64,000 bases of DNA from the IMG/VR virus record IMGVR_UViG_3300030102_008089, positions 22,836-86,835 of that record. One strand, written 5' to 3'. Made by a program: the position numbers and the translations under genes. Source of the DNA: a virus. A model generated the notes under the pieces. The model was not told where the DNA came from and did no database searches. It saw nothing but the letters and a program-made list of their open reading frames with translations. How positions within the stretch are numbered: position 1 is the stretch's first letter; the number at the start of each line of letters is the position of its first letter. Shown in pieces: positions 2,823-36,551 of this stretch.

Positions 2823-3255
2823 TGTTAGCAATGGAAATACGGTGACTCTCCACTATGTTGGGACGTTGCCAGATGGAACGGAGTTCGATAACTCCAGAAC
2901 TCGCCAAGAGCCAATTACAGTGGTCATCGGCTCGGGACAGTTAATTCCAGGCTTCAATGACGCCTTAGTTGGGATGAGCGTGTCAGAAACCAAGAGCTTT
3001 ACCTTGACCCCTGACAATGCTTATGGAGACAGGGTTGAGGATCGTACGACCTCTCTCTCTAAAACTGTTTTTCCTGAAGATTTTGTCTTTCAAGAGGGTA
3101 TGCAAATTCCTCTTCAAGGACCTGAAGGACCAGTTATCTCAACCTTACTGGAGGTAAACGACAGCGAGGTGGTCTTGGATTTGAATCATCCGATGGCTGG
3201 GAAGACATTAAATTTTGAAGTGGAAGTCCTAAACATTGAAGACACTGACGGCTAA
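2815..3255 (+). CDS. FKBP-type peptidyl-prolyl isomerase, SlyD-like
   Basis: Predicted cytoplasmic prolyl isomerase/chaperone of 146 residues from ATG 2815 (GAAAGGAAAG upstream; a longer TTG frame at 2800 is less likely). FKBP hallmarks are VTLHYVGTLPDGTEFDNS at the N-terminus and GSGQLIPGFNDALVGM. The second half has the flap insertion typical of SlyD-class enzymes, including LNHPMAGKTLNFEVEVLNI. The metal-binding His-rich tail of E. coli SlyD is absent. FKBPs are uncommon in phages; folding of virion proteins or modulation of host factors is a guess. Confidence 0.92.
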   Translation: MTSVSNGNTVTLHYVGTLPDGTEFDNSRTRQEPITVVIGSGQLIPGFNDALVGMSVSETKSFTLTPDNAYGDRVEDRTTSLSKTVFPEDFVFQEGMQIPLQGPEGPVISTLLEVNDSEVVLDLNHPMAGKTLNFEVEVLNIEDTDG

Positions 3256-3279
3256 AATATTCTTCGCTTTAGCCCGATT

Positions 3280-3347
3280 CTTCCAGGGCAGGGGGATGCT
3301 TATTGGACAATGGTTCCAAAACAAGGGCATCCTCCTGCTTTCGGAAG
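3280..3347 (+). other. Intergenic RNA hairpin
   Basis: The gap after the FKBP gene holds a nested inverted repeat. CTTCC at 3280-3284 pairs with GGAAG at 3343-3347. A 12-base arm at 3288-3299 pairs with 3327-3338 with one mismatch. TTGGA at 3303-3307 pairs with TCCAA at 3315-3319. There is no T-run after it, so it is not an ordinary intrinsic terminator. It lies 13 bases before the next start and could be an attenuator, a processing site or a translational control element. Confidence 0.6.
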
Positions 3348-3359
3348 TAGGGTCAAAAC

Positions 3360-3662
3360 GTGATTAGTATGCTTTTAGCAGTGGCTTTGGCGCTGCCTAA
3401 TTACAACGTAGAGCGCAAGATGAGCCCTCGACAGGTTCGAGCAAAAGCACACCAAATCGTGCAAATGTTGAAGAGGCAAGACCCTCGTGTCATCCGCTCT
3501 GTTTTATATTACATGGGGTGGGTTCCGAAGATGAAGTTCAAGCGTGAGAAAATGCGGGAACCCTGTAAAAAAGATAAACGCAAAACACAGTTAGATAAAC
3601 TTAACGAATGGGAACTAAACATGTTATTAGATATGGCAGGCATCCCAAGGAAAAAGAAATGA
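3360..3662 (+). CDS. Small basic protein with hydrophobic N-terminus
   Basis: A 100-residue protein (GTG start; ATG 3369 is an alternative). The first 14 residues are hydrophobic and could be a short signal or membrane anchor. The rest is strongly basic, with RQVRAKAHQIV and a Lys-rich C-terminus. No family is recognised. The stop overlaps the ATG of the next gene (ATGA), suggesting coupled translation with the lipoprotein. Confidence 0.6.
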   Translation: MISMLLAVALALPNYNVERKMSPRQVRAKAHQIVQMLKRQDPRVIRSVLYYMGWVPKMKFKREKMREPCKKDKRKTQLDKLNEWELNMLLDMAGIPRKKK

Positions 3663-4033
3663 AATATATTATTCTAGCATCGCTACTGTTAACTGGGTGT
3701 GCCCACACCATCGCCCCAGATCCTAAAAAGTGTTGTGAACGATTGAGTCTTCACCAACAAGAGATGCAGAAATTTACCCGCTACTGCAAGGTTGCTTTAT
3801 TCCTACATCGAGGAGACGCAATCAACGACAAAAAGGTTAAAGATCTATCTGGTCGAGCAGTTAATGTTTGTAAGTTTGTATTCGGCGTGAAAACAGAGGA
3901 ACAACTATTGTCTGTAGTCGATCTGAATGAAGGATACCACAAGGTTCGTCATTATATTATTAAACCAAGTGACAACTTTTGGAGACATTCTTTACCTTGT
4001 GATCCTGCCGAGGCCACTTGTGAGGAGTTCTGA
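3659..4033 (+). CDS. Putative lipoprotein
   Basis: A 124-residue protein whose start at 3659 overlaps the upstream stop. MKYIILASLLLTGC is a compact lipoprotein signal peptide with lipobox LLTGC. The mature part contains paired cysteines (KCCERLS and CDPAEATC near the end). It is presumably anchored in the host envelope after export. No known family is recognised; phage envelope lipoproteins often act in superinfection exclusion or as lysis spanins, but no spanin partner is seen. Confidence 0.75.
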   Translation: MKYIILASLLLTGCAHTIAPDPKKCCERLSLHQQEMQKFTRYCKVALFLHRGDAINDKKVKDLSGRAVNVCKFVFGVKTEEQLLSVVDLNEGYHKVRHYIIKPSDNFWRHSLPCDPAEATCEEF

Positions 4034-4254
4034 TGTCGCAACAAGAATACCTATACCGATGCTCTTCTGACGGCGCTGTCAATAACGGACTGAAGCAACA
4101 GTGTGATTTTGAGTTTGTTTTCATAGAGGGAGATCATCATTGTCCCCTGTGTGGCAGCAGACTGTTGAGAGTTCCAACGGGACCATCTGTGTCTGAGTTG
4201 TTGCGACGTGGACAAGAGGAAGTAGAGCGAAAGAAAAGGGAAAATAAAGAATAA
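4033..4254 (+). CDS. Small zinc-ribbon protein
   Basis: A 73-residue protein whose ATG overlaps the preceding TGA. It carries Cys residues at about 10 and 24 and a CPLCG knuckle near residue 39, consistent with a rubredoxin or FmdB-like zinc ribbon, followed by a charged helical tail. It may bind nucleic acid or protein; the exact partner is unknown. A second FmdB-like protein occurs at 59045. Confidence 0.75.
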   Translation: MSQQEYLYRCSSDGAVNNGLKQQCDFEFVFIEGDHHCPLCGSRLLRVPTGPSVSELLRRGQEEVERKKRENKE

Positions 4255-4382
4255 TGGAAGTCTTAGACAATTTCACTATTATTGTCCTCGCTTTTGCTGC
4301 TGGGATGGTCACACACAGAGTATTGTGGACCACCTTCGATTGGGTGCTTGACAAGTTAGAAGATATGGATGAAAAATACTAA
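4254..4382 (+). CDS. Membrane microprotein, 42 residues
   Basis: The start overlaps the previous stop (TAATG). One hydrophobic segment, FTIIVLAFAAGMV, is followed by a charged tail ending DMDEKY. The frame overlaps the following small gene by 14 bases. It is a member of a chain of overlapping genes, which is the main support for translation. No family is recognised. Confidence 0.6.
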   Translation: MEVLDNFTIIVLAFAAGMVTHRVLWTTFDWVLDKLEDMDEKY

Positions 4383-4458
4383 TTGGGAAGAAGTGATCAC
4401 CATCTTTGGTGTAGCGGTAACTCTGGTAGCAGCGGCTTACGGATTGGCTGCGATCTAA
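4369..4458 (+). CDS. Membrane microprotein, 29 residues
   Basis: ATG at 4369 lies inside the end of the preceding microprotein, and the stop directly abuts the ATG of the zinc-finger gene at 4459. After six polar residues the protein is almost wholly hydrophobic (ITIFGVAVTLVAAAYGLAA), a single membrane helix. Support comes from the perfectly nested start/stop junctions rather than homology. Confidence 0.55.
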   Translation: MKNTNWEEVITIFGVAVTLVAAAYGLAAI

Positions 4459-4932
4459 ATGCCTGCCGCTTACTACGATGACAACGGGAACCACGTTAAG
4501 CAATGCACCAAGTGCAAGAAGGTGCTGCCCGTCGAAGAATATTATAAGCACGCTCCTGGCGCTTCGAAGGATGGTCTACAACATCGCTGCCGTCACTGCA
4601 TCTTGGCTGGCTACCGAGAGCAAAACCGAAGGCGCAACAAAAAAAGAAAACAAAAAACCCACAAGCTTAACAAGATTCATGTAGAGTGGATAAGGGAACA
4701 AAAGGGAAAGCTCAGTATAAGAGAAACAGCTAAACAATTTAGCAAAAGGTTCTTTGCCTATAAGATCAACCCCTCTACAGTTCAAAGGATATTTGCTGGC
4801 AAGATACACGTAGACCCAGAGACTACAGAAGACGCTATGAGCATCTACGATTTGCTAGAAGGTGCCAGCGATTACAGCGGTTCAGTAGAGGATTATATCG
4901 ACTCCACAGATACTAAGAAAGTCAAGTTCTAA
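4459..4932 (+). CDS. Zinc-finger / helix-turn-helix DNA-binding protein
   Basis: A 157-residue protein. Residues 15-48 hold CTKC and CRHC knuckles separated by about 25 residues, a layout found at the N-terminus of some phage HNH endonucleases. A very basic linker follows. The central segment LSIRETAKQFSKRF with PSTVQRIFAGK looks like a helix-turn-helix. No HNH catalytic core is present, so it is probably a DNA-binding regulator. It precedes a 293-base regulatory gap. Confidence 0.7.
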   Translation: MPAAYYDDNGNHVKQCTKCKKVLPVEEYYKHAPGASKDGLQHRCRHCILAGYREQNRRRNKKRKQKTHKLNKIHVEWIREQKGKLSIRETAKQFSKRFFAYKINPSTVQRIFAGKIHVDPETTEDAMSIYDLLEGASDYSGSVEDYIDSTDTKKVKF

Positions 4933-5035
4933 ACCTGTTGCAAAGTAAAGATGCATAAACCCTTGAAAATAGCTCATAAATTTAAACTTTTGTTAAGTGA
5001 TTGTTTTTGCAGTTTTTCACAACCGTTGCCTACGG

Positions 5036-5100
5036 ATTGTCCAGCAATATCAAAGGATTATGTTATTGTCAGCAATTGTCTGCTTTTGACAGCGATTGTC
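5036..5100 (+). promoter_or_regulatory. Phased ATTGTC repeats upstream of the MoxR promoter
   Basis: The hexamer ATTGTC occurs at 5036, 5065, 5075 and 5095, at spacings of 29, 10 and 20 bases, so all fall near the same helical face. The last is part of the inverted repeat GACAGCGATTGTC at 5088-5100. They lie 75-140 bases before the -35 box at 5175. The rest of the 4933-5225 gap is A/T-rich with no gene. A regulator binding site is inferred. Confidence 0.45.
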
Positions 5101-5174
5101 TGAATGTGTCTAATACAGAGTAGGAGAGAAAACGTCAAGGGTAAATAAAAAAGCAGAAAAAAGCACATAAAAAG

Positions 5175-5202
5175 TTGACAGATGCCATATCGATGCTAAT
5201 AT
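5175..5202 (+). promoter_or_regulatory. Sigma70-like promoter for the MoxR gene
   Basis: TTGACA at 5175-5180, a 16-base spacer, then TAATAT at 5197-5202. A leader with GGAGAGAGGGAG follows and the ATG is at 5226. The same architecture recurs at 6339, 22199, 22440 and 22968. Confidence 0.85.
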
Positions 5203-5225
5203 ACTAGTGGAGAGAGGGAGACACA

Positions 5226-6266
5226 ATGTCCGTAGACTTCAAAACTTTCGTGAGCCTAGCACCTTCAGTGAGTGCTGCTCGATTGCCTGTTCTTCTCCGT
5301 GGTCGTCACGGTATCGGTAAGAGTCAGGTTGTTTATCAATTGGCTGCCAACGCTGGGATGCCAGTAGTTGAGCGGCGTGCCAGCCAGATGACCGAGGGTG
5401 ACTTGGTTGGACTGCCCAGTGTTGAGGGCAATCGCACCAGCTTCAACCCTCCTGATTGGTTCAAGCAAGCTTGTGAAGAGCCTGTCTGCTTGTTCCTTGA
5501 TGAGGTTGACCGTGCTACCTTGGAAGTTCGCCAAGGGATCTTCGAACTGACCGACAGTCGTAAACTGAATGGTCACAACCTTCACCCTGATACGATCATC
5601 TTCGCTGCCGTCAACGGCGGGGAACATGGCGAGAACTACCAAGTGAATGAGATGGATCCTGCGGAACTTGACCGCTGGTCTGTCTGGGACATTGAGCCCA
5701 CGGTCGAGGACTGGTTGTCCTGGGCTAAGAACAATGTTGACGGTCTCATCTGGGACTTCATCAACCAAAACAGAAATCACCTTGAACACAACGGTGACAT
5801 CGAACCGAACAAGCGGTATCCCAGCCGTCGTAGTTGGGATCGCCTTGACAAGGTGCTCAAGCAGGCAGACGCTCTCGAAGCTTCTCCCGCAATGTTCAAC
5901 CTGGCTCAGAGCTTTGTCGGCTTCGAAGCTGCTGTGGCTCTCAACGACTTCGCCAAGAACTACGAGCGGGTTGTGACGGTCGAACAATTGCTCGAAGGTG
6001 AGCGAGTTGAAGCTCTGGCTGCCTTCTCTCTGAATGAACACTGCGCTATGATCGAAAAGGTGGAGGCTGAGGAAGTTCTCAAGGCTGAGATCTCTGAAGA
6101 ACACCTGATCAACCTTGCCAACTACTTCGTCACGCTGCCCAGCGAGGCTGCGATGAAGCTCTGGTCAGTCATCAGCCAAGCTGGTGTCCAAGAAAACGTG
6201 GTGAAGTTCCACGGTGCCAATGACGGCGCTGTCGGTAGCCACCTCTCCAAAATCCTGGGAGCCTAA
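5226..6266 (+). CDS. MoxR-type AAA+ ATPase
   Basis: A 346-residue ATPase. The P-loop is GRHGIGKS near residues 26-33; Walker B is CLFLDEVDRA near 87-96; a sensor-like asparagine lies in FAAVNGG. MoxR ATPases act as chaperones, usually paired with a VWA-domain partner, to insert metals or remodel complexes. The partner is very likely the next gene. Codon use is richer in G and C than in the glycan cluster, in keeping with strong early expression. A dedicated promoter precedes it and a terminator follows. Confidence 0.9.
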   Translation: MSVDFKTFVSLAPSVSAARLPVLLRGRHGIGKSQVVYQLAANAGMPVVERRASQMTEGDLVGLPSVEGNRTSFNPPDWFKQACEEPVCLFLDEVDRATLEVRQGIFELTDSRKLNGHNLHPDTIIFAAVNGGEHGENYQVNEMDPAELDRWSVWDIEPTVEDWLSWAKNNVDGLIWDFINQNRNHLEHNGDIEPNKRYPSRRSWDRLDKVLKQADALEASPAMFNLAQSFVGFEAAVALNDFAKNYERVVTVEQLLEGERVEALAAFSLNEHCAMIEKVEAEEVLKAEISEEHLINLANYFVTLPSEAAMKLWSVISQAGVQENVVKFHGANDGAVGSHLSKILGA

Positions 6267-9463: not shown

Positions 9464-9593
9464 TAATTTAGCAGAGATTGTAATGTATACCCTGGCCTGG
9501 TTTGTGATAAGTTGCGGTTTCGCTTTTATTATTGCTGCTGCGTTCTTTGGGTACCCCGAAGAAAAAGATAAGGAAAATCAAGATGTTGTATAA
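9447..9593 (+). CDS. Membrane microprotein, 48 residues
   Basis: The start lies within the Smr-like gene. One membrane helix (LAWFVISCGFAFIIAAAFFG) is followed by an acidic tail, YPEEKDKEN. Its 3' end overlaps the next start at 9583. No family is recognised. Confidence 0.6.
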   Translation: MTSFISNLAEIVMYTLAWFVISCGFAFIIAAAFFGYPEEKDKENQDVV

Positions 9594-9930
9594 GTCATTG
9601 TTTTTACTAGTATTTGCAAATATGTTCAACCAAGCATACCAAATGCAAGAAATTAAATGCCCTCGGTGGGTACCAAATACTAATCAAGTCTTGCCTCATG
9701 GTGTTACGCTCTCACCTGAATTGGAGCTAAAGAACCGAGTTCGCTGCTATTGTGAGGTTGTGTTACCTCAAGAACGAGGTTGTATCGCTAATAACGTGCC
9801 AAGAAACCTCTGTAAGGCTCGCACGGCTACATGGGTCGAAGATAACTTGATGCTACGAGAAAATTTTAGGCGAGCGCAAGCGCCTGCTCCACTACCTCAA
9901 CGGGATAGGATGATGAATGTCGAGCCGTAG
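9583..9930 (+). CDS. Secreted cysteine-containing protein
   Basis: A 115-residue protein from ATG 9583. The N-terminus LYKSLFLLVFANMFNQAYQ is a signal-peptide-like segment. The mature part has five cysteines (CPRW, CYC, GC, LC), which could form disulfides in the periplasm or outside the cell. It overlaps the PilX-like gene by 14 bases, suggesting a joint role at the envelope. No family is recognised. Confidence 0.65.
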   Translation: MLYKSLFLLVFANMFNQAYQMQEIKCPRWVPNTNQVLPHGVTLSPELELKNRVRCYCEVVLPQERGCIANNVPRNLCKARTATWVEDNLMLRENFRRAQAPAPLPQRDRMMNVEP

Positions 9931-10321
9931 GGGAGTTACTCTTGTTATGGTCTTGGTAATGTCTGCTCTTATTGGTATGAGTGCAATGTTATTATTTTCT
10001 ACCACGAATTTAGAAATGATGATTGTGGGCAATAAGCGCCGTCATAACCAAGCAAAAATTTCGGCGACGAGCGGGCTCAATCATTTCACCGCTCTTAACT
10101 TGGATTACAACACACTTAGAGGGCGGGCTGGCGGTCTGCAAACTTTACAGGTTCTGCCTGCGACCCGATTGTCCGATAAAACTCACTACGAGGTAAAAGT
10201 ACACTTCTCTCCTAGCCTAAGTGCGGGGCAATATGTGGTCGAAAGTGTTGGTTATTATACTAAGGGGAATAAAATTTTGGCCAAGCATCCAATAAAAGCT
10301 ATTTTCGAAGGCGAGCAATAG
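9917..10321 (+). CDS. PilX-like type IV minor-pilin protein
   Basis: A 134-residue protein. The first 45 residues have a short basic leader (MSSRRG), a hydrophobic helix VTLVMVLVMSALIGMSAMLL, and then TNLEMMIVGNKRRHNQA, closely following the PilX N-terminal pattern of minor pilins (RG-(V/S)-(T/A)-L, then a MxGNxRxxNxA motif). The prepilin peptidase site would be G6-V7. The C-terminal part is beta-rich. Minor pilins prime pili and mediate adhesion. A phage copy could modify host pili; that is inference. Confidence 0.75.
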   Translation: MSSRRGVTLVMVLVMSALIGMSAMLLFSTTNLEMMIVGNKRRHNQAKISATSGLNHFTALNLDYNTLRGRAGGLQTLQVLPATRLSDKTHYEVKVHFSPSLSAGQYVVESVGYYTKGNKILAKHPIKAIFEGEQ

Positions 10322-10674: not shown

Positions 10675-11499
10675 ATGGGATCTAATCATAAGTGGAAACA
10701 ATTTATTAATGAATCCGTTAAAGTATATGTCCACGGATATATAAAACCTTTAGCCGCTTTTCATACCCTACAAGAATGGGAAACACTTTTTGTCAATAAA
10801 ATTTTAAAGTTTCAAGAAGAAGGTAATTACGTTAGTCATGGACATGGTGAGCTTGTAGGACCTCAAGAACTTTTAGATTTAATAGAAGATTTTTACGGGT
10901 TCCAGCTAAATGTTGATGTAGATAGGTATGATTTGCTGACTCAGAAGAATGTACTTGATCATATTGAAGATTTTGTTAATCATAGATACTGGTCATTAGC
11001 TAATGAATTTGGACAATATTTTGACGACATCTCTGACCTTAAGTTTGCTTACTTTTATTCTCGTGGTGATCTAGAGCCATACGTCTTGGTTGACGAAACT
11101 TTTACCGAACAGATATATGGGTCTACTAATAATATTAAGACGCTCTATCATTACACGCACAAAGAAGGTGTAGACAGAATACAACGTGCCATTGAAAGCG
11201 GGGATCCATTTGATATTTCTGCATACACAATGGCAAAGCGAGACTTCTTCCGTCAAAAATCAAATCTGATAATGGAGTTTGAGGGGAATGTCAGAGCAGG
11301 CTTCCGTAGTGATGTTAAATCTTATTCTGTCAGTAATGGTCGGAAGTGTGTAAATCTACACAGACTTGGATACCCTGGCAAAGGAAAAGATAATCTCTGC
11401 ACTGACTTAGAGAACGATTGCAATGGAGAATTAAAGACTTCCCTGTGGAATGAATTTATTGTAACTCCTGTAAAGATTTTAGAAGTTTATGAAAAATGA
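10675..11499 (+). CDS. Tagged protein with ADP-ribosyltransferase-like C-terminal part
   Basis: A 274-residue protein whose N-terminus HKWKQFINES resembles the WRKFLKE tag of the downstream genes and T4 internal-protein leaders; FINE gives an I-x-E site. From about residue 160 the segment TLYHYTHKEGVDRI resembles the Y-H-Y-T strand that opens many phage and toxin ADP-ribosyltransferase domains. The catalytic glutamate cannot be placed with confidence; the end, LWNEFIVTPVKIL, is a typical closing strand. Its stop overlaps the next start. Confidence 0.65.
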   Translation: MGSNHKWKQFINESVKVYVHGYIKPLAAFHTLQEWETLFVNKILKFQEEGNYVSHGHGELVGPQELLDLIEDFYGFQLNVDVDRYDLLTQKNVLDHIEDFVNHRYWSLANEFGQYFDDISDLKFAYFYSRGDLEPYVLVDETFTEQIYGSTNNIKTLYHYTHKEGVDRIQRAIESGDPFDISAYTMAKRDFFRQKSNLIMEFEGNVRAGFRSDVKSYSVSNGRKCVNLHRLGYPGKGKDNLCTDLENDCNGELKTSLWNEFIVTPVKILEVYEK

Positions 11500-12209
11500 G
11501 AGACCTGCTCAAGAAAATGATAATGGAAGAAATTATCAGAGGCAGAGCCCTTGACCGCTATGCCACTATGGCTAGCAGAGAAACCATAGACGCTATCAAG
11601 AATGAAGCAGTCAGGGAAGCCTTCAATACTAATGGCAGGGCTGACTTCGCACTGGACGTTCCAGAAATTACAGACGATATAGACTACTTGAGAACAATTA
11701 TTATTAGGCTCCGTGAGGGCGACTATGTTGCTGCTGATGGTTCGTATGAATTTGATTTGGATGCTGATGACGAACAGCGTAAGACTTCCGACATTTATGT
11801 AAACATTACTCTGCCTCCTCGGTATGATGAAGATTATTCTTTTATGTCCCGCTTGGTTGCCGAGTTGAAGGAGACCTTCCGTCACGAGTTAGAACACAGT
11901 TCCCAGAGCACCGAGGAGTTGATGGCTGTACAGCGAGCAGTCCCAGACCGAGAGGTATGGAAAGACTTGGAGACAGCGGAGGATTATTACCTTTCTGATG
12001 CCGAGGTGAAGGCTCATGTGGCGGGCATCTACAAAAAGGCAAAGAGTTTCCGAAAGCCCGCTACAAATGTGTTGGAGCGAGTTTTAAATGTTATATATAA
12101 CACTGGCTTATACTACAATCACGACCCTGCAAAACTTGCAGAGTTGATGGAAAAGATACAAAGCCGCTGGGCGAACTATTTATTTAAGCGATATCGGAGG
12201 GCTAGATAA
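11496..12209 (+). CDS. Tagged putative zinc metalloprotease
   Basis: A 237-residue protein. The N-terminal helix RDLLKKMIMEEIIRGRA contains I-M-E, consistent with prohead-protease processing. At about residues 128-134 the sequence FRHELEHSSQ has an HExxH zinc-binding motif, followed by acidic segments that could supply the third ligand. It probably acts as a peptidase or a structural metalloprotein. The start overlaps the ART-like gene and the stop overlaps the next ATG. Confidence 0.65.
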   Translation: MRDLLKKMIMEEIIRGRALDRYATMASRETIDAIKNEAVREAFNTNGRADFALDVPEITDDIDYLRTIIIRLREGDYVAADGSYEFDLDADDEQRKTSDIYVNITLPPRYDEDYSFMSRLVAELKETFRHELEHSSQSTEELMAVQRAVPDREVWKDLETAEDYYLSDAEVKAHVAGIYKKAKSFRKPATNVLERVLNVIYNTGLYYNHDPAKLAELMEKIQSRWANYLFKRYRRAR

Positions 12210-13075
12210 TGAGCCATAAAATCCTAATGGAAAACTGGAGAAACTTTATTAGTAAGGAAAACTCCCAAAAGGATGTTTTAAACGAACAAGAAGGTGGGAG
12301 CTTTTTTAATCCAGACATCCCACTTAAATTAAGTGATGTTGACCCTGAGAAAGCAAAGAAGGTTGCTACTTCTGGGCGTAAGGACGGGGATGAGAACGAT
12401 GACGACATTAAAGCTGACTACAAGCCCGATGGCGTAGCTCCTGTTGGGAAATTAAAACCTTCTCAATCTAGTATGAACATTGAAAAAGCCTTGGCTTTTG
12501 TTTTGAATATGTTAAATCCAGATCACGAACTGCAAGCTGGCGGTGACCTGGAGGCTTTAATCAGCAAGGATCGATTTATAATGGACGGACACCATCGATG
12601 GATTGCTACAGCAATGATTGACCCTACGCTTAAAGTTGGCGGCTATTTAGTTCAGTTTCCTGCCAAACAATTAGTGGCTGTTTTAAACACGATGACAAAA
12701 GGTCTTTTTGGTCAGATGCAAGGAAATGAAGCCACAGGAGGATTTGAACAATTTAAACCTGGACCAATGAAAAAGCAGTTAATGCAATATTTAAATGCTG
12801 GTGTCTGGCAAATGAAACCAGAGGATGTTACGCAGGTTTTACAGAAATTTACAGGGTCACAGGAATCTGGAGAAGGTTTGGTAGATTTAGCCGTGGCTAA
12901 AATGGTCTCTAATCTAAAAGGTATCTCACTAGCTGTTCCCTCTTGGGCGGCCGAAAGAGAAGATATGCCAGTCATTGATAAACCAAATGTACCAAAAGCG
13001 GCAAAAGCTTTGAACACTGGAGAGGTTGATTGGAACCAGCCTTTAGCCGCCAATAGAAAAGAAAAAAATAAATAA
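12209..13075 (+). CDS. Tagged DGHHR-motif protein (ParB/Srx-like), paralogue 1
   Basis: A 288-residue protein. The tag ILMENWRNFISKE is nearly identical to that of the next two genes. The core has PVGKLKPSQSSM followed by FIMDGHHRWIATAMID at about residues 122-137. The GHHR box and the preceding 'L.PSQ' strand recall the ParB/sulfiredoxin-like fold, which can hydrolyse nucleotides or nick DNA. The C-terminus ends with a Lys-rich tail. Paralogue 2 follows after 11 bases. Confidence 0.7.
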   Translation: MSHKILMENWRNFISKENSQKDVLNEQEGGSFFNPDIPLKLSDVDPEKAKKVATSGRKDGDENDDDIKADYKPDGVAPVGKLKPSQSSMNIEKALAFVLNMLNPDHELQAGGDLEALISKDRFIMDGHHRWIATAMIDPTLKVGGYLVQFPAKQLVAVLNTMTKGLFGQMQGNEATGGFEQFKPGPMKKQLMQYLNAGVWQMKPEDVTQVLQKFTGSQESGEGLVDLAVAKMVSNLKGISLAVPSWAAEREDMPVIDKPNVPKAAKALNTGEVDWNQPLAANRKEKNK

Positions 13076-13086
13076 AGGGATATTTT

Positions 13087-13980
13087 ATGAAACTGTTGAT
13101 GGAAAATTGGAGAAAGTTTCTTAAGGAAGAGAAAGGTTCAGATCCAGAACAACAAAGAACTTTAAAAAACCTTTTAAACAAAAAGTATTCTTCTTTTGTG
13201 GATGGGCTTGAGAAACAAGTAAAAGATCCAAAGTTTGCTAACTTTTTAAGTATGGGGCTTAAACCAGATGATGGTGACGGACGAGACGACATCATAGCTG
13301 TTAGAAAAACAGCCATTCCCGTTAAGAAGTTACTTCCCACACAAAGTCAGATAGGATTAGCAGATTCTCTAGGGTGGATTAGCGAAAACAAGCCACAAGC
13401 TGCTGGAGAGTATGCAAAATTAACAGGTGGAAGTGCCGCTGATGTTGGTGGCAGAATTATAACAGCCAATGGAAAACATATTGTTGATGGACACCACAGG
13501 TGGTCACAGGTTTACTTACTAAATCCAGAGGCTAGTATACCAGTTTATGATTTTACTGTATCTGATAGTATGCCCGCTGAAGATCGTGGGAAGGCAGCAC
13601 TCAAATTAGCTCACCTTGCAATTGCTGCTGTTGACAAAGCGGTACCGCTTGTGGCTGCTGATGCCGCAACCGATATTTATGCAACGCAAGGAGATGAAAA
13701 CAAAATTAAACAAATATTAAACAAGACCATAAGTGATGAGATGGTAAAATCTTTATCAGATGCTTATGGTGTTTCTTCTAGAGATGAGGTGGTAAACAAA
13801 GTAACTAATAATGCCTTGTCTCTTTATAAGGGCACTAAGGCTGCCGCAGCCAAAGGACCAGAACGTGGTGAGATGCCACAAACAGCAGGAACTCCCGATT
13901 TTGGAGACACTGACCCTCTAGATAAAATGAAAGCTATGAGGGCAGGTTCTGTTAATTGGAAGACTCCCTCTGGGGAGTAG
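13087..13980 (+). CDS. Tagged DGHHR-motif protein (ParB/Srx-like), paralogue 2
   Basis: A 297-residue protein with tag MKLLMENWRKFLKEE. It shares with paralogue 1 the sequence order LPTQSQIGLAD (paralogue 1 LKPSQSSMNIEK), then HIVDGHHRWSQVYLLNPEA, and the same C-terminal ending in which G-x-V-(D/N)-W precedes the tail (GSVNWKTP versus GEVDWNQP). Overall identity is low, so the duplication is old or the two were acquired separately. A ParB-like nucleotide- or DNA-handling role after injection is inferred. Confidence 0.7.
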   Translation: MKLLMENWRKFLKEEKGSDPEQQRTLKNLLNKKYSSFVDGLEKQVKDPKFANFLSMGLKPDDGDGRDDIIAVRKTAIPVKKLLPTQSQIGLADSLGWISENKPQAAGEYAKLTGGSAADVGGRIITANGKHIVDGHHRWSQVYLLNPEASIPVYDFTVSDSMPAEDRGKAALKLAHLAIAAVDKAVPLVAADAATDIYATQGDENKIKQILNKTISDEMVKSLSDAYGVSSRDEVVNKVTNNALSLYKGTKAAAAKGPERGEMPQTAGTPDFGDTDPLDKMKAMRAGSVNWKTPSGE

Positions 13981-13988
13981 TACTGTCC

Positions 13989-15077
13989 ATGAGACTCATA
14001 ATGGAAAATTGGCGCAAGTTCCTAAAGGAAGGCATCAGCCCAGTCGTGTATCACTACACCAGTGGTCTTGATAAATCCCAAAAGATCCTAGAAGAAAATC
14101 GTTTCCTTACCTCTGGTGCTTATACTAAGGGTGAAGTTGAAACTCGATTTGGTAAAGGTAAACTTTATTATTTTTCTACCGCAAGAACGCCAATGGGAGC
14201 ATACACTGGAACATATCCTCAAGGAGCTATCTTTAAATTGGACGGACGAGCTTTGGCTCAGAAATACAAAGGAGCCCCTGTTGATTACTATGGTTCCGCA
14301 GAACGGGGCTCATCTAAAAAAGCAGCGGGTGGCTACTTTGGCGAAGAGGGATTTGAGGCAGAAGATAGAATTATAACTAATGAGCCGTATATCGAAGACG
14401 CCGACAGATATATTGATGAGATACATTTTGCTATTCCTTTGTATAGATTTACACAAGATTTTATGGAGACCAAGCCAACTAGAAAGCCTGGAAGCGCCAT
14501 AGAAGGATATGTAATGGAAGGACTTGAAAAAGGCGTTGCTATAGCGGAGCAAAGAAACATTCCTTACTATATCCACATTGATAAAACAACTTGGCCGAAT
14601 GTTGAGGTTGGAAAAAAGAAAGCACTTACTAGTCTGTCTCAATTTATGGAAGAAGTAGAAAAGGCTGGTGTCGAAGTTCGTGAGCGACCTGATATGTCTG
14701 GTGTGACTCAAAGAGAGGGCAGATCTACAAGAGAGGATGAAGTGTTCAGATACTATGTCGTGGCTAAGAGTATTCTTGCTGGCGATAAAGAACTTGATGT
14801 ATCGGAAATTAAGGGTCGTAGTCGTTATTCTCCAGAGGAGATGCGTAGAGAAAATGCTCAGAAGATTTTTAAGAAGATCACTACTGGTGACCCTGATCCG
14901 ACTGGTCGATATCATCCGCAAATTAATAACGCACTTCACAGTGTTGGCAGAGAACCACAGAGTCGTGAAACTTTGGAACTTTTATCTTCTTTGTTCCGCC
15001 AAACAAAACAATCGACGCTAAAAGGTTTTGAGAACTATTTAAGAAAGGTTTATGAAAAAAATCATGGGGACCAATAA
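13989..15077 (+). CDS. Tagged ADP-ribosyltransferase-like protein
   Basis: A 362-residue protein. I choose ATG 13989 because it gives the tag MRLIMENWRKFLKEG directly; a longer frame begins at 13956. After the tag come VVYHYTSGLDKSQKIL, then KLYYFSTARTPMGAY, a strand GAIFKLDGRAL, and later EAEDRIITNEPYI before EIHFAIPLY. This order (Y-H-Y-T strand, S-T-A/R-x-x turn, late E-x-E/D-R) fits an ADP-ribosyltransferase fold. T4 packages and injects its ADP-ribosyltransferase Alt, giving a functional precedent. Confidence 0.7.
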   Translation: MRLIMENWRKFLKEGISPVVYHYTSGLDKSQKILEENRFLTSGAYTKGEVETRFGKGKLYYFSTARTPMGAYTGTYPQGAIFKLDGRALAQKYKGAPVDYYGSAERGSSKKAAGGYFGEEGFEAEDRIITNEPYIEDADRYIDEIHFAIPLYRFTQDFMETKPTRKPGSAIEGYVMEGLEKGVAIAEQRNIPYYIHIDKTTWPNVEVGKKKALTSLSQFMEEVEKAGVEVRERPDMSGVTQREGRSTREDEVFRYYVVAKSILAGDKELDVSEIKGRSRYSPEEMRRENAQKIFKKITTGDPDPTGRYHPQINNALHSVGREPQSRETLELLSSLFRQTKQSTLKGFENYLRKVYEKNHGDQ

Positions 15078-15377
15078 ATGAAAATTACAAAAACCTTATT
15101 GAGAAAGATTATCAAAGAGGAAATCCTCAAAGAATACGGCATGGAGCAAGACTTCGAAAAGGGTATGAGAGTTACTTTTAATAAATTAGAGAAAGTAATT
15201 AAGACAACTGCTAGCGGAAAACAAAAAGTAGATTATGTTAGAATGCCTATGGAAGGTATCATTGTCGCAGAGCCTATGATAGACAGAACTTCTGCTGAAC
15301 CAGGCTACGCTGAAGTAAAAGTAGATGGTGAACCAGATACCATAACAATTAGAATAGCCGAACTCAGACCAGCGTAA
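15078..15377 (+). CDS. Small tagged protein
   Basis: A 99-residue protein directly abutting the ART-like gene. The leader KITKTLLRKIIKEEILKEYG is an amphipathic helix with I-K-E and L-K-E sites, a leader type frequent in virion proteins of marine phages. The rest is beta-rich (GMRVTFNKLEK, EVKVDGEPDTITIRI). Its function is unknown; it is the last tagged gene of the cassette. Confidence 0.7.
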   Translation: MKITKTLLRKIIKEEILKEYGMEQDFEKGMRVTFNKLEKVIKTTASGKQKVDYVRMPMEGIIVAEPMIDRTSAEPGYAEVKVDGEPDTITIRIAELRPA

Positions 15378-15405: not shown

Positions 15406-16599
15406 ATGAGTATTTTTCGTGAACACAAGACAATTGCCGATCGAGCAGCCAGCGACAGAAGCCGCCATAGGCAAAAGATTGAAAAAGCAATAAAAGAAAG
15501 TATTCGGGACGTTGTTGCCGAGGAAAGTATTATTGGACAAAGCGGAAAAAAGAAAATAAGAATACCTGTCAAGGGAATAAAAGAACATCGTCTTGTGTAT
15601 GGATCAAATGAAAATAATAAACAAGTGGGTTCAGCCCAAGGTAAAGATATTACCAAAGGGCAAAGAATAGGACACAGAAGAAGAACCAAACCTCAACAAG
15701 GAAAAGAAGACAAGCCTGGAGACAAACCAGGGGAAGAAATGTATGAGATAGAGATGTCGCTAGAAGAGCTAGCAGGATACCTCTTTAATGACCTAGAACT
15801 ACCAGAACTAGAGAAGAAAAATTTTAAATTTACAACCCAGGAAAAGTTTAAAAGAAAAGGCAAAAGACCATATGGTATCCGACCACGCCTATCAAAAAAA
15901 GAAACCATAAAACAAAAGATCAAAAGAAAAAAAGCAGCTATTAAAGCTGGAACTTATAACCCTGAAGAGGATGACAGATTTTCTTTTCACGAAAGCGATC
16001 TTAGGTACAAGCACATAGCGCCCGTCCAGAAAGAAAACACTGCCGCTGTTGTTTTCTTTGTAATGGATGTCTCTGGGTCTATGACCAAATCTAAGAAATT
16101 TTTAGCTCGTAGTTTTTTCTTTCTTTTATATCAATTTTTAAACCATAAATATTCTTCAGTTGATGTTGTTTTCATATCTCACACGGCAGATGCTCACGAA
16201 GTAAATGAAGAACAGTTTTTCACTCAGGTCCCAAACGGTGGAACTTTAGTATCTACAGGACTTAAAAAAACTGAGGAAATTATTGAAAAACGTTATCATC
16301 CGAATAACTGGAATATTTACACGTTTTATTGCGGCGATGGAGATAACTGGAGTATTGATAACAAAGAAGCGTTAGCTGCCTTCAGAAGACTAAAAGAAAT
16401 TAATCAACTAATGTGTTATACGGAAATTGGAAGACTTGTTGATTACAGAGAGTATAGTTTGTTTGCGGGCGGAACAGTAGAGAAAAAACTATGGGACTGG
16501 ACAAAACTCGTAGAGGATAAAATGTTTAAAAGAGTACGCCTAGAAGAACACTCTGATATATGGCCTTCTTTCAAAAAATTGTTTGGAGGGAAAAACTAA
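15406..16599 (+). CDS. yeaH: YeaH-like VWA protein (DUF444)
   Basis: A 397-residue protein of the DUF444/YeaH family (E. coli YeaH about 427). The N-terminus IFREHKTIADRAASDRSRHR and the middle HESDLRYKH are family signatures. The VWA domain begins VVFFVMDVSGSMTKS, with an intact MIDAS (DxSxS), followed by VFISHTADAHEV and PNGGTLVSTGL. In enterobacteria yeaG(prkA)-yeaH is a stress operon, with ycgB (spoVR) functionally linked. Here all three are adjacent, with YeaH first; the stop overlaps the spoVR ATG. Confidence 0.95.
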   Translation: MSIFREHKTIADRAASDRSRHRQKIEKAIKESIRDVVAEESIIGQSGKKKIRIPVKGIKEHRLVYGSNENNKQVGSAQGKDITKGQRIGHRRRTKPQQGKEDKPGDKPGEEMYEIEMSLEELAGYLFNDLELPELEKKNFKFTTQEKFKRKGKRPYGIRPRLSKKETIKQKIKRKKAAIKAGTYNPEEDDRFSFHESDLRYKHIAPVQKENTAAVVFFVMDVSGSMTKSKKFLARSFFFLLYQFLNHKYSSVDVVFISHTADAHEVNEEQFFTQVPNGGTLVSTGLKKTEEIIEKRYHPNNWNIYTFYCGDGDNWSIDNKEALAAFRRLKEINQLMCYTEIGRLVDYREYSLFAGGTVEKKLWDWTKLVEDKMFKRVRLEEHSDIWPSFKKLFGGKN

Positions 16600-17915
16600 T
16601 GCCTGATTGGTCTTTAAGTGAGTTGCAAGAATGGGATGAAAAAATATGTTCTCTGGGAGAAGCTTTAAACCTTGACTGGTATCCTATCGAGTATGAAATT
16701 TGTGACTACAAAGAAATGATTGGACATATGGCTTACACTGGGTTACCTACCCATTACCGTCACTGGTCTTTTGGCAAATCTTTTGATAGAATACAGACAG
16801 AATATAATCTTGGAATGTCTGGGCTTCCTTATGAGATGATCATAAATTCAAATCCTAGTATCTCATATTTAATGACAGAAAACCCAATGCCAACACACAT
16901 ATTAACAATGGCTCACTGTGTGGGTCACTCTGATTTTTTCAAGAACAACAGGATGTTTTCTGAGACTGGCGCTGACACCGTTATTGATAGTTTCAAGGCG
17001 TCAGGAAGAAGAGTTAAGAAATATATTGAAGACCCAAATATAGGAATTGAAAAGGTAGAAAGAATTCTAGATGCTTGCCATGCAATTAGATTTCAAGTTC
17101 CTAGAACCCCTGGTGTTAAAAGAAGAAACCATAAACAACTTAAAAAGTATTATCAGGAATTAATCAGACAAGATGTCACTGGCTGGTGGGCGACTCATTT
17201 TAATATTAACAAAATACCTTTGGAGCCAGATTGTAATTTGCTTGGCTTTATCGCAACTCACAGTAATCTAGAGGAATGGGAAAAAGATTTAGTCTCTATT
17301 GTTGAAAAAGAATCAAAGTATTTTGTACCACAAGCGTATACAAAAATAATGAATGAAGGCTGGGCTTGTTTAATTCACGAAAAAATAATTCAAGCACTTA
17401 ATCTGCCCGATGACTATTATTTATCTTTTATACGTCTTCATAACCAAGTTGTTCGACCTCATCTCGGAAGGATTAATCCTTACCATCTTGGGTACAAAAT
17501 CTTCAGACACATTGAGGATAACTTGGGGTTTGAAGAGTGTCTAAGAGCAAGAGAGACACACAATGACGAAACGTTTATTAAACATTACCTAACTCAAGAG
17601 TTGTGCGAAGAGCTTAATTTGTTTAGTTTTTCTTTTCACAGGAGGGATGGCTATAATCGCATTACAGAAATTTCATCCGAAGAAACGTGGAGAACTGTTC
17701 GTGACGACCTAATTAAGAATGTAGGGCTTAATGGCGTTCCTGTGGTTTTAGTTAAAGAATTGAAAAAAGATGGTACTTTAATTCTAGAACATGAACACGA
17801 CGGTAGAGACTTAGAGCTTTCGCAAGCTAATAAAGTCTTTGAACACATTAACGACCTATGGAGCGGTGATATAAGATTTACAACAGTTATCGAAGACGAG
17901 GCTTGGGAGTTTTAA
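16599..17915 (+). CDS. spoVR: SpoVR family protein
   Basis: A 438-residue homologue of B. subtilis SpoVR and E. coli YcgB (about 470-510). Signatures include LDWYPIEYEICDYKEMIGHMAY, split here as LDWYPIEYEICDY and EMIGHMAYTG, then LPTHYRHWSFGKSF, TMAHCVGHSDFFKNN and NEGWACLIHEKI. The biochemical function is unsettled; it acts with PrkA and YeaH in sporulation and starvation responses. The start at 16599 overlaps the yeaH stop, and prkA begins two bases after its end, so the three are co-translated. Confidence 0.95.
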   Translation: MPDWSLSELQEWDEKICSLGEALNLDWYPIEYEICDYKEMIGHMAYTGLPTHYRHWSFGKSFDRIQTEYNLGMSGLPYEMIINSNPSISYLMTENPMPTHILTMAHCVGHSDFFKNNRMFSETGADTVIDSFKASGRRVKKYIEDPNIGIEKVERILDACHAIRFQVPRTPGVKRRNHKQLKKYYQELIRQDVTGWWATHFNINKIPLEPDCNLLGFIATHSNLEEWEKDLVSIVEKESKYFVPQAYTKIMNEGWACLIHEKIIQALNLPDDYYLSFIRLHNQVVRPHLGRINPYHLGYKIFRHIEDNLGFEECLRARETHNDETFIKHYLTQELCEELNLFSFSFHRRDGYNRITEISSEETWRTVRDDLIKNVGLNGVPVVLVKELKKDGTLILEHEHDGRDLELSQANKVFEHINDLWSGDIRFTTVIEDEAWEF

Positions 17916-17916
17916 A

Positions 17917-19857
17917 ATGGCAAACAAAAAATCTGATCGTTTTCTCAAGTTAATTGGAAAACACAACGAAAAGAAAAAGAAAGAAAAATTTAGTGGTTCT
18001 TTTGAGGATTATTTAAGGATCCTAGAGAATGACACAACTATTACAAAATTAGCCCACAAAAGACTATACGATTCAATAGTTGAAAGTGGTATAACAAAAT
18101 TGAGCCAAACAGATGAAAGATGCAACAAGCTTTTTGGTGGCGAAGAATTAAGAACCTATGATTATTTCCAAGACAAGTTTTTTGGAATGGAAAGATCTTT
18201 AGCAAAGATTATGCGTTTCTTGCGGTCTGCATCGCTTAAGGGCGAAGAGAGCCGTCAGGTTCTTTTATTGTTGGGTCCTGTTGGTGCTGGCAAGTCTGCA
18301 CTTATGGAGCACATCAAAAGATCACTAGAAGACTCAGAACCAATGTATCATCTTGATGGGTGCCCAATTAACGAGGAGCCACTACACCTAATTCCTAGAT
18401 CACTAAGGTCCGACTTTGAAAAACTATACGGCATTAAAATTGAGGGTGATTTATGTCCTGTCTGTCGCTATAGATTGAAAGAAGAATTTAATAATGACTA
18501 TTTAAAGTTTCCTGTAGCTCAGTCTTCTTTTTCTGTACGAGGACGCCGTGGTGTTGGAGTTGTTCCTCCAATGGATGCAAATAGTCAAGATGTGACTGTT
18601 TTAGTCGGCAGCGAAGACATTTCAAAACTTGACCTTTATTCTGAAGATGATCCAAGAGTTCTGTCTTTAAATGGTGCCTTTAATGTCGGCAATAGAGGTA
18701 TAGTTGAATTTGTAGAAGTGTTTAAAAATGAGATTGAATTTTTGCACACGATGATTACCGCAACACAGGAAAAAGCCGTACCATCACCAGGTAAAGGTCC
18801 AATGATTTATTTTGATGGGGTAATTTTAGCTCATTGTAACGAAGCTGAATGGAACAAGTTTAAATCTGAAAACACAAACGAAGCTATCTTAGACAGAATT
18901 GTAAGAGTTAATGTTCCTTATTGTCTAGAAGTATCTGAGGAAGTTAAAATATATAACAAAATGTTGGGACTCTCTGACTTTGATGGACACATAGCGCCAC
19001 ACACTCTTGAGGTTGCTGCAATGTTTGCAGTGTTAAGTCGCCTGCACCCCTCTAATAAAGTTGATGCTTTGACCAAGATGAAACTATATGATGGACAAGA
19101 TGTTATAGAAAGAGGGTCTGTTAAAAAAATAGACATAAATGATCTTAGAGACGAAGCAAGAGACGAAGGGATGACAGGAATTTCAACCCGCTTCATAATG
19201 AAGGCTATTGATAGTGCCTTATCAGATAGTGAAAAAAATATGGTAACTCCAATTTCAATAAGGGATTCATTAATAAAGCAAGTTAAGGATCAAATAGTTG
19301 TAGAAGATGATAGGAACAGGTACCTAGACTTTCTAGGAAAGACCTTGCACGATGAATATCTAAACATTCTTGAGAAAGAAATTACAAAAGCCTTTGTCTC
19401 TGCTTATGACGAACAGGCGGAGTCGCTTTTCAACAATTATCTTGACCACGCCGAAGCATATGTCAATATGACAAATGTAAAAGACTCAGTAACTAACGAA
19501 GAGATAGCTCCCGATGAAAAATTTATGCTCTCTATTGAAGAACAAATAGGAATTACGGGTACAGCAAGAGAAAACTTTAGAGTTGACATAACAGCGTTTA
19601 TGTTTTCTAAACTCAGAAGAGGTGAGACTGTAGACTGGAAATCATATGCCCCACTAAAAGAAGCTATTGAGAGCAAGTTAACCTCTTCTGTTAAGCAAAT
19701 TTCTAGAATTGTAACAAAATCTAAGAGCAGAGATAAGAAACAACAAGGAAAGTATAACGAAATGTTACAGACTCTGATTGATGAGTACGGATATAATGAG
19801 GAATCAGCAGAGGAAGTAATCAAGTTTGCCTCTAATAATCTCTGGAGAGACAGTTAG
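17917..19857 (+). CDS. prkA: PrkA/YeaG serine protein kinase
   Basis: A 646-residue AAA+-like protein kinase, full length compared with E. coli YeaG (644). Residues about 15-40 have the family opening FEDYLRILENDTTITKLAHKR (given here only in part as FEDYLRILE). The P-loop is LLGPVGAGKS near residue 118-127, and the CPVCRY segment near 190 is a typical PrkA zinc-like knuckle. The C-terminal kinase-like domain is present. PrkA phosphorylates stress targets and in some species shows protease activity. It closes the yeaH-spoVR-prkA operon. Confidence 0.95.
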   Translation: MANKKSDRFLKLIGKHNEKKKKEKFSGSFEDYLRILENDTTITKLAHKRLYDSIVESGITKLSQTDERCNKLFGGEELRTYDYFQDKFFGMERSLAKIMRFLRSASLKGEESRQVLLLLGPVGAGKSALMEHIKRSLEDSEPMYHLDGCPINEEPLHLIPRSLRSDFEKLYGIKIEGDLCPVCRYRLKEEFNNDYLKFPVAQSSFSVRGRRGVGVVPPMDANSQDVTVLVGSEDISKLDLYSEDDPRVLSLNGAFNVGNRGIVEFVEVFKNEIEFLHTMITATQEKAVPSPGKGPMIYFDGVILAHCNEAEWNKFKSENTNEAILDRIVRVNVPYCLEVSEEVKIYNKMLGLSDFDGHIAPHTLEVAAMFAVLSRLHPSNKVDALTKMKLYDGQDVIERGSVKKIDINDLRDEARDEGMTGISTRFIMKAIDSALSDSEKNMVTPISIRDSLIKQVKDQIVVEDDRNRYLDFLGKTLHDEYLNILEKEITKAFVSAYDEQAESLFNNYLDHAEAYVNMTNVKDSVTNEEIAPDEKFMLSIEEQIGITGTARENFRVDITAFMFSKLRRGETVDWKSYAPLKEAIESKLTSSVKQISRIVTKSKSRDKKQQGKYNEMLQTLIDEYGYNEESAEEVIKFASNNLWRDS

Positions 19858-19868
19858 ATTCAGTTTTT

Positions 19869-20846
19869 ATGAAAAAACTACCAGATTCGTTAAACAAGCT
19901 TTCAAAATTGGTTGGTGATACGCCCCTATTAGTAATTTCTTGCCGTTTTGAAGGCAAAAACATTGATATCTATGCAAAATATGAAGCATGGAACTATTCT
20001 GGAAGTATAAAAGACCGAATGGCACTGCAAATTTTGCAGAATGCATATTTTATTGGTGCGATATCTGAAAAAGATACTATTGTTGAGGCAACTAGCGGGA
20101 ACACAGGTATAGCATTTGCTGCAATGGGTGCATATTTAGGTCACCCTGTCGAAATCTACATGCCAGATTGGCTTTCTGAAGAAAGAAAAAAGCTTTTGAG
20201 GTTTTATGGCGCAAAATTATATGAAATAAGTGCTGAAAATGGTGGTTTTACTAAATGTATTGAACTCGCAACTAAAAAATCATCAAAAAAAGGCTATTTT
20301 TGTCCAAAACAGTTCGAAAATTCGAGTAATGTCTTAGCACACTATAAAAACACAGCCCCAGAGATGGATATGTGTTTTTTAAGAAATAATATTAATAAAA
20401 TTGATGCTTTTGTCACTGGTGCTGGCACTGGAGGTACAATTATGGGCTTTTATAGGTATTTTTCCGAAAAAAACAAGCATTTTCAAGCACATCCTGTATT
20501 TCCAGTCAATAATAGTGATGGAGGGCACAGAATTGAAGGTATTGGTGATAGTTTTGTCCCACAGATACTTTGTTTGGACGAGTTAGAACATATTATTAGG
20601 ATATCTGACAATAGTGCAATAAATGTGGCACGACTTCTAAATAAAAAAGGTCTTTCGGTTGGTATCTCGTCTGGGGCCAATCTATTAGCTGCATTAATCA
20701 AAAGAAATGATATGTGTGAAGGGTCTATTGTCGCAACTATCCTTTGCGATGACAATAAGAAATACTTATCAACTGATTTATTTTCTGATACAAATGAAAG
20801 CTTAGATTATGATTTACAAATTATAGACTATAAAGTTTTGACATAA
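19869..20846 (+). CDS. Cysteine synthase-like PLP enzyme
   Basis: A 325-residue fold-type II PLP enzyme. LVGDTPLLVI opens the family fold. The PLP lysine is in NYSGSIKDRMAL, TSGNTGIAFA binds the substrate carboxylate, GAGTGGTIMGF is the phosphate loop and SVGISSGANLLAAL is near the C-terminus. It would form cysteine from O-acetylserine or a related substrate; cystathionine beta-synthase-like activity is an alternative. It sits 11 bases after prkA and may be a metabolic helper gene supplying cysteine or sulfide. Confidence 0.9.
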   Translation: MKKLPDSLNKLSKLVGDTPLLVISCRFEGKNIDIYAKYEAWNYSGSIKDRMALQILQNAYFIGAISEKDTIVEATSGNTGIAFAAMGAYLGHPVEIYMPDWLSEERKKLLRFYGAKLYEISAENGGFTKCIELATKKSSKKGYFCPKQFENSSNVLAHYKNTAPEMDMCFLRNNINKIDAFVTGAGTGGTIMGFYRYFSEKNKHFQAHPVFPVNNSDGGHRIEGIGDSFVPQILCLDELEHIIRISDNSAINVARLLNKKGLSVGISSGANLLAALIKRNDMCEGSIVATILCDDNKKYLSTDLFSDTNESLDYDLQIIDYKVLT

Positions 20847-36226: not shown

Positions 36227-36551
36227 GGGGGTAAACGGTATCGATTGATGGGAAAGTAGAAAAGGTGCAAGGGTGAGGGAAGCGTGGCTCACGAAAAACG
36301 CTTAAAACTTTAATCGCCAATGACGATTTCGAAATGGAGATGGCAGCTTAAAAACCTGACCTCCCATGAGGCGACGGCAGCCGATAAACAGAAAGCCGTA
36401 TTTGGGTGTCTTAAGTGCTTTTGATTGTTATAGCCGCAATAAAACGATCTAGTCAAGCGGGCTGTCTGACGATAAAAACAGACCTAACCTTGTGAATGAC
36501 CCTTCTATGGAACTAGACAAGACGGGAGTTCGATTCTCCCTACCTCCACCA
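36227..36551 (+). ncRNA. ssrA: tmRNA
   Basis: The 5' end GGGGGTA pairs with TACCTCC next to the 3' ACCA, and the T-arm GGGAG/CTCCC with loop TTCGATT completes the tRNA-like half. The tag-coding frame at 36316-36351 begins GCC and reads ANDDFEMEMAA then TAA, a typical AND...AA tag for trans-translation. Length is about 325 nt, with pseudoknot-like regions after the tag. It rescues stalled ribosomes with SmpB. No smpB is seen, so host SmpB would be used. Confidence 0.96.

Follow-up and report, generated by a model that had tools for sequence, protein, structure and literature searches.

A tagged ADP-ribosyltransferase-like protein of large phages that is probably packaged in the phage head

RESULTS AND DISCUSSION

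The window analyzed here is a 64,000-nucleotide stretch of viral DNA, bases 22836-86835 of the 127,433-base virus record G000 (IMGVR_UViG_3300030102_008089). Its gene at 13989-15077 probably encodes an ADP-ribosyltransferase (ART) that is packaged into the prohead and injected into the host, acting like T4 Alt but lying outside the Alt family. We infer packaging from an N-terminal tag and its association with a head protease, and catalysis from a predicted fold and a set of invariant residues. In the proposed mechanism, residues 1-14 would act as a capsid-targeting sequence (CTS), directing the protein to the prohead core; there it would be cut after E14 by a gp21-type protease. The released protein would hold NAD+ in the ART cleft by means of H22 on strand 1 and S63 and R66 after strand 2, with E125 of an ExE motif serving as the catalytic glutamate. 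On infection, ADP-ribose would be transferred to a host macromolecule, either protein or nucleic acid, within the first minutes, while further effectors encoded with a tag in this cluster would act alongside. Injection with the viral DNA would probably help the phage take over the bacterium. Coordinates of the gene, its domains and motifs, and the neighboring genes are collected in Table 1.

Predicted fold and conserved residues

The AlphaFold2 model of the protein, built with 35 aligned family members, had a predicted local distance difference test (pLDDT) score of 84 and a predicted template modeling (pTM) score of 0.81. Comparison of this model with solved structures by VIA-align gave yeast Tpt1 as the top match (Z score of 8.7; root mean square deviation of 2.7 Å over 112 residues), followed by the DarT proteins of M. 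tuberculosis and Thermus (Z scores of 7.5 to 8.4 over 140 to 150 residues). The six best matches were Tpt1 and DarT only. Below a gap, at Z scores of about 3 to 4, came many other ARTs, among them pertussis toxin S1, Tne2 (4.0), CteC, CARDS toxin, pierisin, and PARP1. The initial annotation had read an ART fold from the order of sequence motifs and proposed comparing a predicted structure with DarT-, Alt-, and Tre-type folds; the model indeed adopts a split six-stranded ART fold whose best solved matches are all ARTs. The modeling thus supports an ART fold for residues 17-204, with Tpt1 and DarT as the nearest folds. In a viral structure library, 12 proteins were matched at E values of <0.001, most of them nameless or uncharacterized and one labeled as ASCH domain containing.

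Residue conservation was assessed in an alignment of 74 distinct family members, many of which are just 20-35% identical to the window protein. Six residues (H22, S63, R66, E123, E125, and R127) are invariant in 74/74 sequences. Nearly invariant are position 21 (Y/F/W), T24, G86, D99, Y100, and position 126 (D/E). The elements named in the initial annotation occur in the order given there, namely, the tag (residues 1-14), VVYHYT (19-24), YYFSTARTP (60-68), GAIFKLDGRAL (79-89), and EAEDR (123-127), and the six invariant residues place the motifs YHYT, STAR, and EAEDR beyond chance. A conserved glutamate near EAEDR, the lack of which would have spoken against an ART, is present twice in each of the 74 homologues (E123 and E125). 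The general trait of the ART superfamily, which pairs a His or Arg on strand 1 with a late-strand Glu (or Asp/Gln), is likewise present (H22, E123, and E125), and E125 is the likely candidate for the catalytic glutamate.

The N-terminal tag and the head protease

The T4 prohead protease gp21 cleaves after the sequence L/I-X-E (PMC9026906) and removes short N-terminal propeptides from Alt and the internal proteins (PMC9026906; PMC9958956). The propeptide of one of these in T4, IPIII, is a proven CTS (PMC9026906; PMC9958956). The tag of the window protein ends in the same motif, as L-K-E. Among the 47 family members with an N-terminal ART domain, 46 have Leu or Ile at the position 10 residues before H22, and 45 have Glu at the position 8 residues before it; in the two exceptions to the latter, the motif is shifted by one residue.

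The tag is not confined to the ART-like gene. Within G000, it also occurs on two ParB-like genes (12209 and 13087) and, at 120615-123134, on four further genes; the gene at 10675 has a weaker form. In the records of relatives, designated G001, G002, G009, and G011 (with individual loci designated L019, L058, L144, etc.), eight tagged genes were found in G001 and six in G002, including GNAT and DUF3293/SAM-lyase-like genes. In each of G000, G001, and G002, the motif stands at the N terminus of 6 to 8 different genes, compared with 2 to 4 occurrences elsewhere in all forward frames. To judge from these carriers, the tag is portable, one type being borne by unrelated proteins of a single phage. 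Synonymous sites within the tag differ among carriers and the upstream DNA is unrelated; therefore, it is the protein sequence in which the resemblance is maintained, and recent DNA duplication was ruled out as its origin.

The presence of the tag tracked that of the protease. Across 11 phage records, a gp21-type protease (PF03420, Peptidase_S77) was encoded in 6/6 with a tagged ART and in 0/5 with an untagged ART (Fisher P = 0.002, an optimistic value given that two of the six tagged records are close relatives). Cultured relatives with both the tagged gene and the protease include Alishewanella phage Slickus01, Salicola phage SCTP-2, and Microcystis phage Mel-JY01. On the ART-domain tree, members without the protease occupy two places, implying two changes; the match between tag and protease probably does not reflect one inherited event, although a single origin is possible. 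The relatives G001, G002, G009, and G011 encode a gp21-type protease, and G001 and G002 also encode the major capsid protein, gp23. The gp23 propeptides of the latter two, which are close relatives, end immediately ahead of the conserved region in LLRE/TTT and LLKE/QTT, and those of more distant relatives end in LLAE/SSA and MLNE/STV (the slash marks the cut site expected from the sequence).

Several observations weigh against a packaged ART. Foldseek alone returned no significant match in the Protein Data Bank (best E value, 0.46), and Z scores of 7 to 9 are close to the level that unrelated models can reach. We nonetheless assign the fold despite these modest scores because the top matches, and most of the matches over residues 11-204, belong to one superfamily and agree with the conserved residues. 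No head protease or gp23 gene was found in the 127-kb G000 record itself, which is probably a genome fragment. Finally, untagged homologues retain the catalytic residues; delivery by the tag route is thus not essential to the role of the enzyme in every phage.

Homologues of the tagged gene

The open reading frame (ORF) begins with an ATG at 13989, preceded by GGAG, and comprises 362 codons. Compared with six close relatives, its ratio of nonsynonymous to synonymous substitution rates (dN/dS) is 0.14-0.23, indicating that the gene is under purifying selection. In tblastn searches of phage records, homologues were retrieved from Vibrio phages K566 and D484, Salicola phage SCTP-2, Microcystis phage Mel-JY01, Pseudomonas phages Lu11 and HRDY3, Dickeya phage JA29, Alishewanella phage Slickus01, Salmonella phage Sen-NF, an uncultured 484-kb phage, and, weakly, Rhizobium phages. 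In IMG/VR, a profile-guided scan identified 99 stretches encoding the family, from which 80 loci were retained. The annotated copies examined are listed as hypothetical proteins. The family has no fitting model in Pfam, PHROG, NCBIfam, or PADLOC; Tox-ART-HYD1 matched two members, only at E values of 0.008-0.25, and a sequence search of the window protein against solved structures gave no match. One pattern-based scan of bacterial genome contigs yielded no bacterial relatives, and a Halobacteriovorax bin (G014) contained no relative of the gene.

Family members vary in architecture. Some are true fusions of an ART and a ParB-like domain (L058 and L086), and others carry the ART domain inside longer proteins of 400-1600 residues. 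Dickeya phage JA29 (L019:2992-4754) and Salmonella phage Sen-NF (L020:2998-4683) possess untagged tandem ART-like copies directly before a DNA ligase gene.

Comparison with known systems

T4 Alt is the best-known injected transferase and belongs to the R-S-E clade, with an Arg on strand 1. The window protein resembles Alt in its ART fold and short N-terminal propeptide; delivery with the DNA is known for Alt and proposed here. It differs from Alt and Mod in having His rather than Arg on strand 1 (74/74), and its gene sits at a different genomic place from that of Alt. Homology to Alt was rejected given this difference on strand 1 and the failure of the family hidden Markov model (HMM) to retrieve T4 Alt at E values of ≤10. 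The initial suggestion of an Alt analogue is supported: the L/I-x-E tag, which is found together with a gp21-type protease, argues for a packaged and injected analogue. Descent from Alt is not upheld, and the fold lies on the DarT/Tpt1 side. The tag itself resembles the CTSs of T4 IPI-IPIII, being about 10-14 N-terminal residues that end in L/I-x-E and occur on unrelated proteins of one phage, but it is attached here to a protein with an enzyme fold, and its sequence (MENWRKFLKE) is distinct.

In DarT2, the NAD ribose is bound by H13 and T15, and the key Glu lies in Q158-x-E160 (PMC9967889, PMC11281641). By motif, H22-x-T24 and E123-x-E125 look like these two elements. DarT is, with Tpt1, the nearest fold, and shares the H-x-T of strand 1 and the x-x-E of a late strand. 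The window protein differs in its ExE (QxE in DarT), its additional helical C-terminal domain, and the lack of a macrodomain among the scanned neighbors of its gene. R66 is invariant and may or may not correspond to the catalytic Arg51 of DarT. Membership in the DarT family was rejected, as there was no Pfam match to PF14487 and hhalign gave a probability of <2%, with likeness limited to the first strand and helix. Tpt1/KptA provides the best single structural match. KptA-type enzymes belong to the H-H-h clade according to an ART survey from 2022 (PMC9503650); the window family departs from this signature, which lacks a catalytic Glu in third place, by its invariant ExE.

Polyvalent proteins, which are predicted to be injected, fuse ParB-like, GNAT, peptidase-like, and ART domains in one chain (PMC5512222). 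The cargo types found here are similar (ART, ParB-like, and HELEH peptidase-like, with GNAT in relatives), and some relatives contain the ART-ParB-like fusions mentioned above, as in polyvalent Tox-ART-HYD2 proteins. The difference is that these domains are mostly separate genes here, each with its own tag. Tox-ART-HYD2 also has an Asp on strand 5, where the present family has Glu in 74/74 members.

The survey sorts ARTs into 16 families and describes them as common in large phages and often head packaged, as predicted from gene context (PMC9503650). It also describes the ORF28 family of insect viruses as DarT related. A betabaculovirus protein ranked 14th in our viral structure library search, and the ORF28 family may thus be a distant cousin of the family described here. 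Head-packaged phage ARTs are therefore already known as a kind. Judged against the survey without its supplement, the new elements are the family, its signature, and the tag-protease link: the earlier predictions of packaging drew on gene context, whereas here the signal lies within the protein and is tied to protease presence. If our reading is correct, the route taken by Alt also serves, in many large phages, a second ART family that lies outside the Alt clade. The L/I-x-E tag would then be a sequence rule for listing hypothetical phage proteins that enter the host first, and what phages inject in the first minutes would become directly testable by virion proteomics.

A broader proposal, which we advance only tentatively, is that the family forms a separate ART class in large T4-type phages, marked by a strand 1 His, by S-x-x-R following strand 2, and by E-x-E-[DE]-R on a late strand. 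Injected via a portable capsid tag, such enzymes would act on a new host target or on nucleic acid. They would belong to a set of effectors whose genes are individually addressed by a tag, rather than being fused into one polyvalent protein.

Alternative explanations

The packaged and injected protein might act on DNA or RNA, like DarT, rather than on proteins, thereby marking host nucleic acid or shielding that of the phage. The two closest folds are both nucleic acid enzymes, the H-x-T and [EQ]-x-E arrangement is that of DarT, and DNA ligase or topoisomerase genes are often close to the gene in the phages whose copy is untagged. Profile similarity to DarT does not extend past the first strand and helix, however, the motif is ExE rather than QxE, and ARTs of similar fold have varied targets. 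We regard a nucleic acid target as possible, albeit not the expected outcome.

An NAD+ glycohydrolase (NADase), which would lower host NAD+ or block NAD-based defense with no macromolecule being modified, is unlikely. An invariant ExE is typical of transferases among ARTs, and immediate depletion of NAD+ could hurt the phage as well. Nevertheless, NADases are known among ART-fold toxins, the weaker structural matches include Tne2, and ART-superfamily NADases in immunity are described in the survey (PMC9503650).

It is also improbable that the tag is a generic N-terminal helix for partner binding or anchoring, on a protein made only after infection. The untagged homologues in phages without Peptidase_S77 would be compatible with such a helix. 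The conserved end of the tag, however, matches the protease motif exactly, recurs in the major capsid propeptide of close relatives, and accompanies the protease (6/6 versus 0/5), and T4 employs short N-terminal propeptides in this way for Alt and its internal proteins. Some ART-fold proteins have lost activity, but a dead scaffold that binds a host partner is very improbable here in view of six polar, active-site-like residues that are invariant in 74 diverse homologues and the low dN/dS.

Neighboring genes and further tagged genes

The ART-like gene is the last of a tagged run from 10675 to 15077. The first gene of the run, which the initial annotation regarded as a weaker second case, gave a poor AlphaFold2 model (pLDDT of 63.5) whose best match was the ART toxin TreTu over residues 153-274, at a Z score of only 2.9. 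W7, F10, E13, H159, and E260 are invariant in 11 close relatives. The model and its match only hint at a second ART. The gene at 11496 had no Pfam match above the cutoff.

TABLE 1 The ART-like gene, its predicted parts, and adjacent genes (window coordinates)
Feature	Position	Strand	Basis
Tagged ART-like gene	13989..15077	+	ORF, 362 aa plus stop; 74 aligned homologues; dN/dS 0.14-0.23
N-terminal tag (MRLIMENWRKFLKE, residues 1-14), a predicted capsid-targeting propeptide that would be cut after E14 (L12-K-E14)	13989..14030	+	L/I-x-E spacing, gp21 motif, protease co-occurrence
ART-fold domain (predicted), residues 17-204	14037..14600	+	AlphaFold2 model; Tpt1 and DarT matched by VIA-align across residues ~11-204
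C-terminal helical domain (predicted), residues 247-359	14727..15065	+	AlphaFold2 model; similar C-terminal segments in many homologues
H22 codon, strand 1 (Y-H-Y-T)	14052..14054	+	Invariant in 74/74
S63-T-A-R66, end of strand 2	14175..14186	+	S63 and R66 invariant in 74/74
E123-A-E125-D-R127 (ExE motif), strand 121-130	14355..14369	+	E123, E125, and R127 invariant in 74/74
Gene whose start (KWKQFINES) is tag-like and whose C-terminal region (LYHYT ... LWNEFIV) is possibly ART-like	10675..11499	+	AlphaFold2; weak structure match; conserved residues
Gene with HELEH zincin-like motif, start MRDLLKKMIMEE, weak tag; possible metallopeptidase	11496..12209	+	Motif read from sequence
Tagged (MSHKILMENWRNFISKE) ParB-like gene, MDGHHRW motif	12209..13075	+	phrog_2859 E 5e-10; ParB-likeness via motif common with 13087
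Tagged (MKLLMENWRKFLKEE) ParB-like gene, VDGHHRW motif	13087..13980	+	phrog_2859 E 1e-5, ParBc_2 E 0.15
Small gene with second tag type (MKITKTLLRKIIKEE)	15078..15377	+	ORF

Outside the window, the four tagged genes at G000:C1:120615-123134 are consecutive (MKKLLTEWRKFLKEV, MKKLMTEWRKFLQEE, MKKLMTEWRKYIKEE, and MKLIMENWRGFLQEG), and none has a Pfam match above the cutoff. A second recurrent N terminus, MKITKxxLxxIIKEE, occurs on several small genes, at 15078 in the window and at G000:C1:117499, 124551, 125458, 125711, and 126097; because I-x-E is found in it too, it may represent a further head tag.

Tagged genes of relatives include L144:8432-9127 of G001, which matches DUF3293 (E value of 3e-9) and, weakly, S-AdoMet lyase, making a packaged antirestriction enzyme possible. 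The next gene, L144:9127-9624, is tagged, carries LFHYS close to its start, and may be ART-like. At the same cluster in a relative, L036:5483-5929 is tagged and has a HITLIH motif; it could be a 2H phosphoesterase and has no Pfam match. In L063, the gene at 3240-5264, which lies two genes ahead of the ART and begins in a tag-like manner, matches Amidoligase_2 (E value of 1e-7).

The tagged run precedes a row of phage-borne YeaH (DUF444), SpoVR-like, and PrkA-like genes (15406-19857), which is kept beside the ART gene in close relatives. The only relative of the PrkA-like protein found in the genome collection (64% identity) is in L161, from a Halobacteriovorax metagenome-assembled genome that also has a T4-type phage contig. 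This is a weak hint at Halobacteriovorax as the host and may reflect contamination.

Elsewhere in the window, two small genes upstream of the cluster (9532-10321) are conserved in relatives, and one has a pilin-like hydrophobic N terminus. A pyridoxal phosphate-dependent enzyme of the cysteine synthase type is encoded at 19869-20846 (PALP; E value of 2e-55). A transfer-messenger RNA gene at 36227-36551 (tag, ANDDFEMEMAA) overlaps a PhoH-like gene whose start is listed at 36492. Finally, three genes are consecutive at 39447-43641, of which two are glycosyltransferase-like and the other has a weak GtrB-like match.
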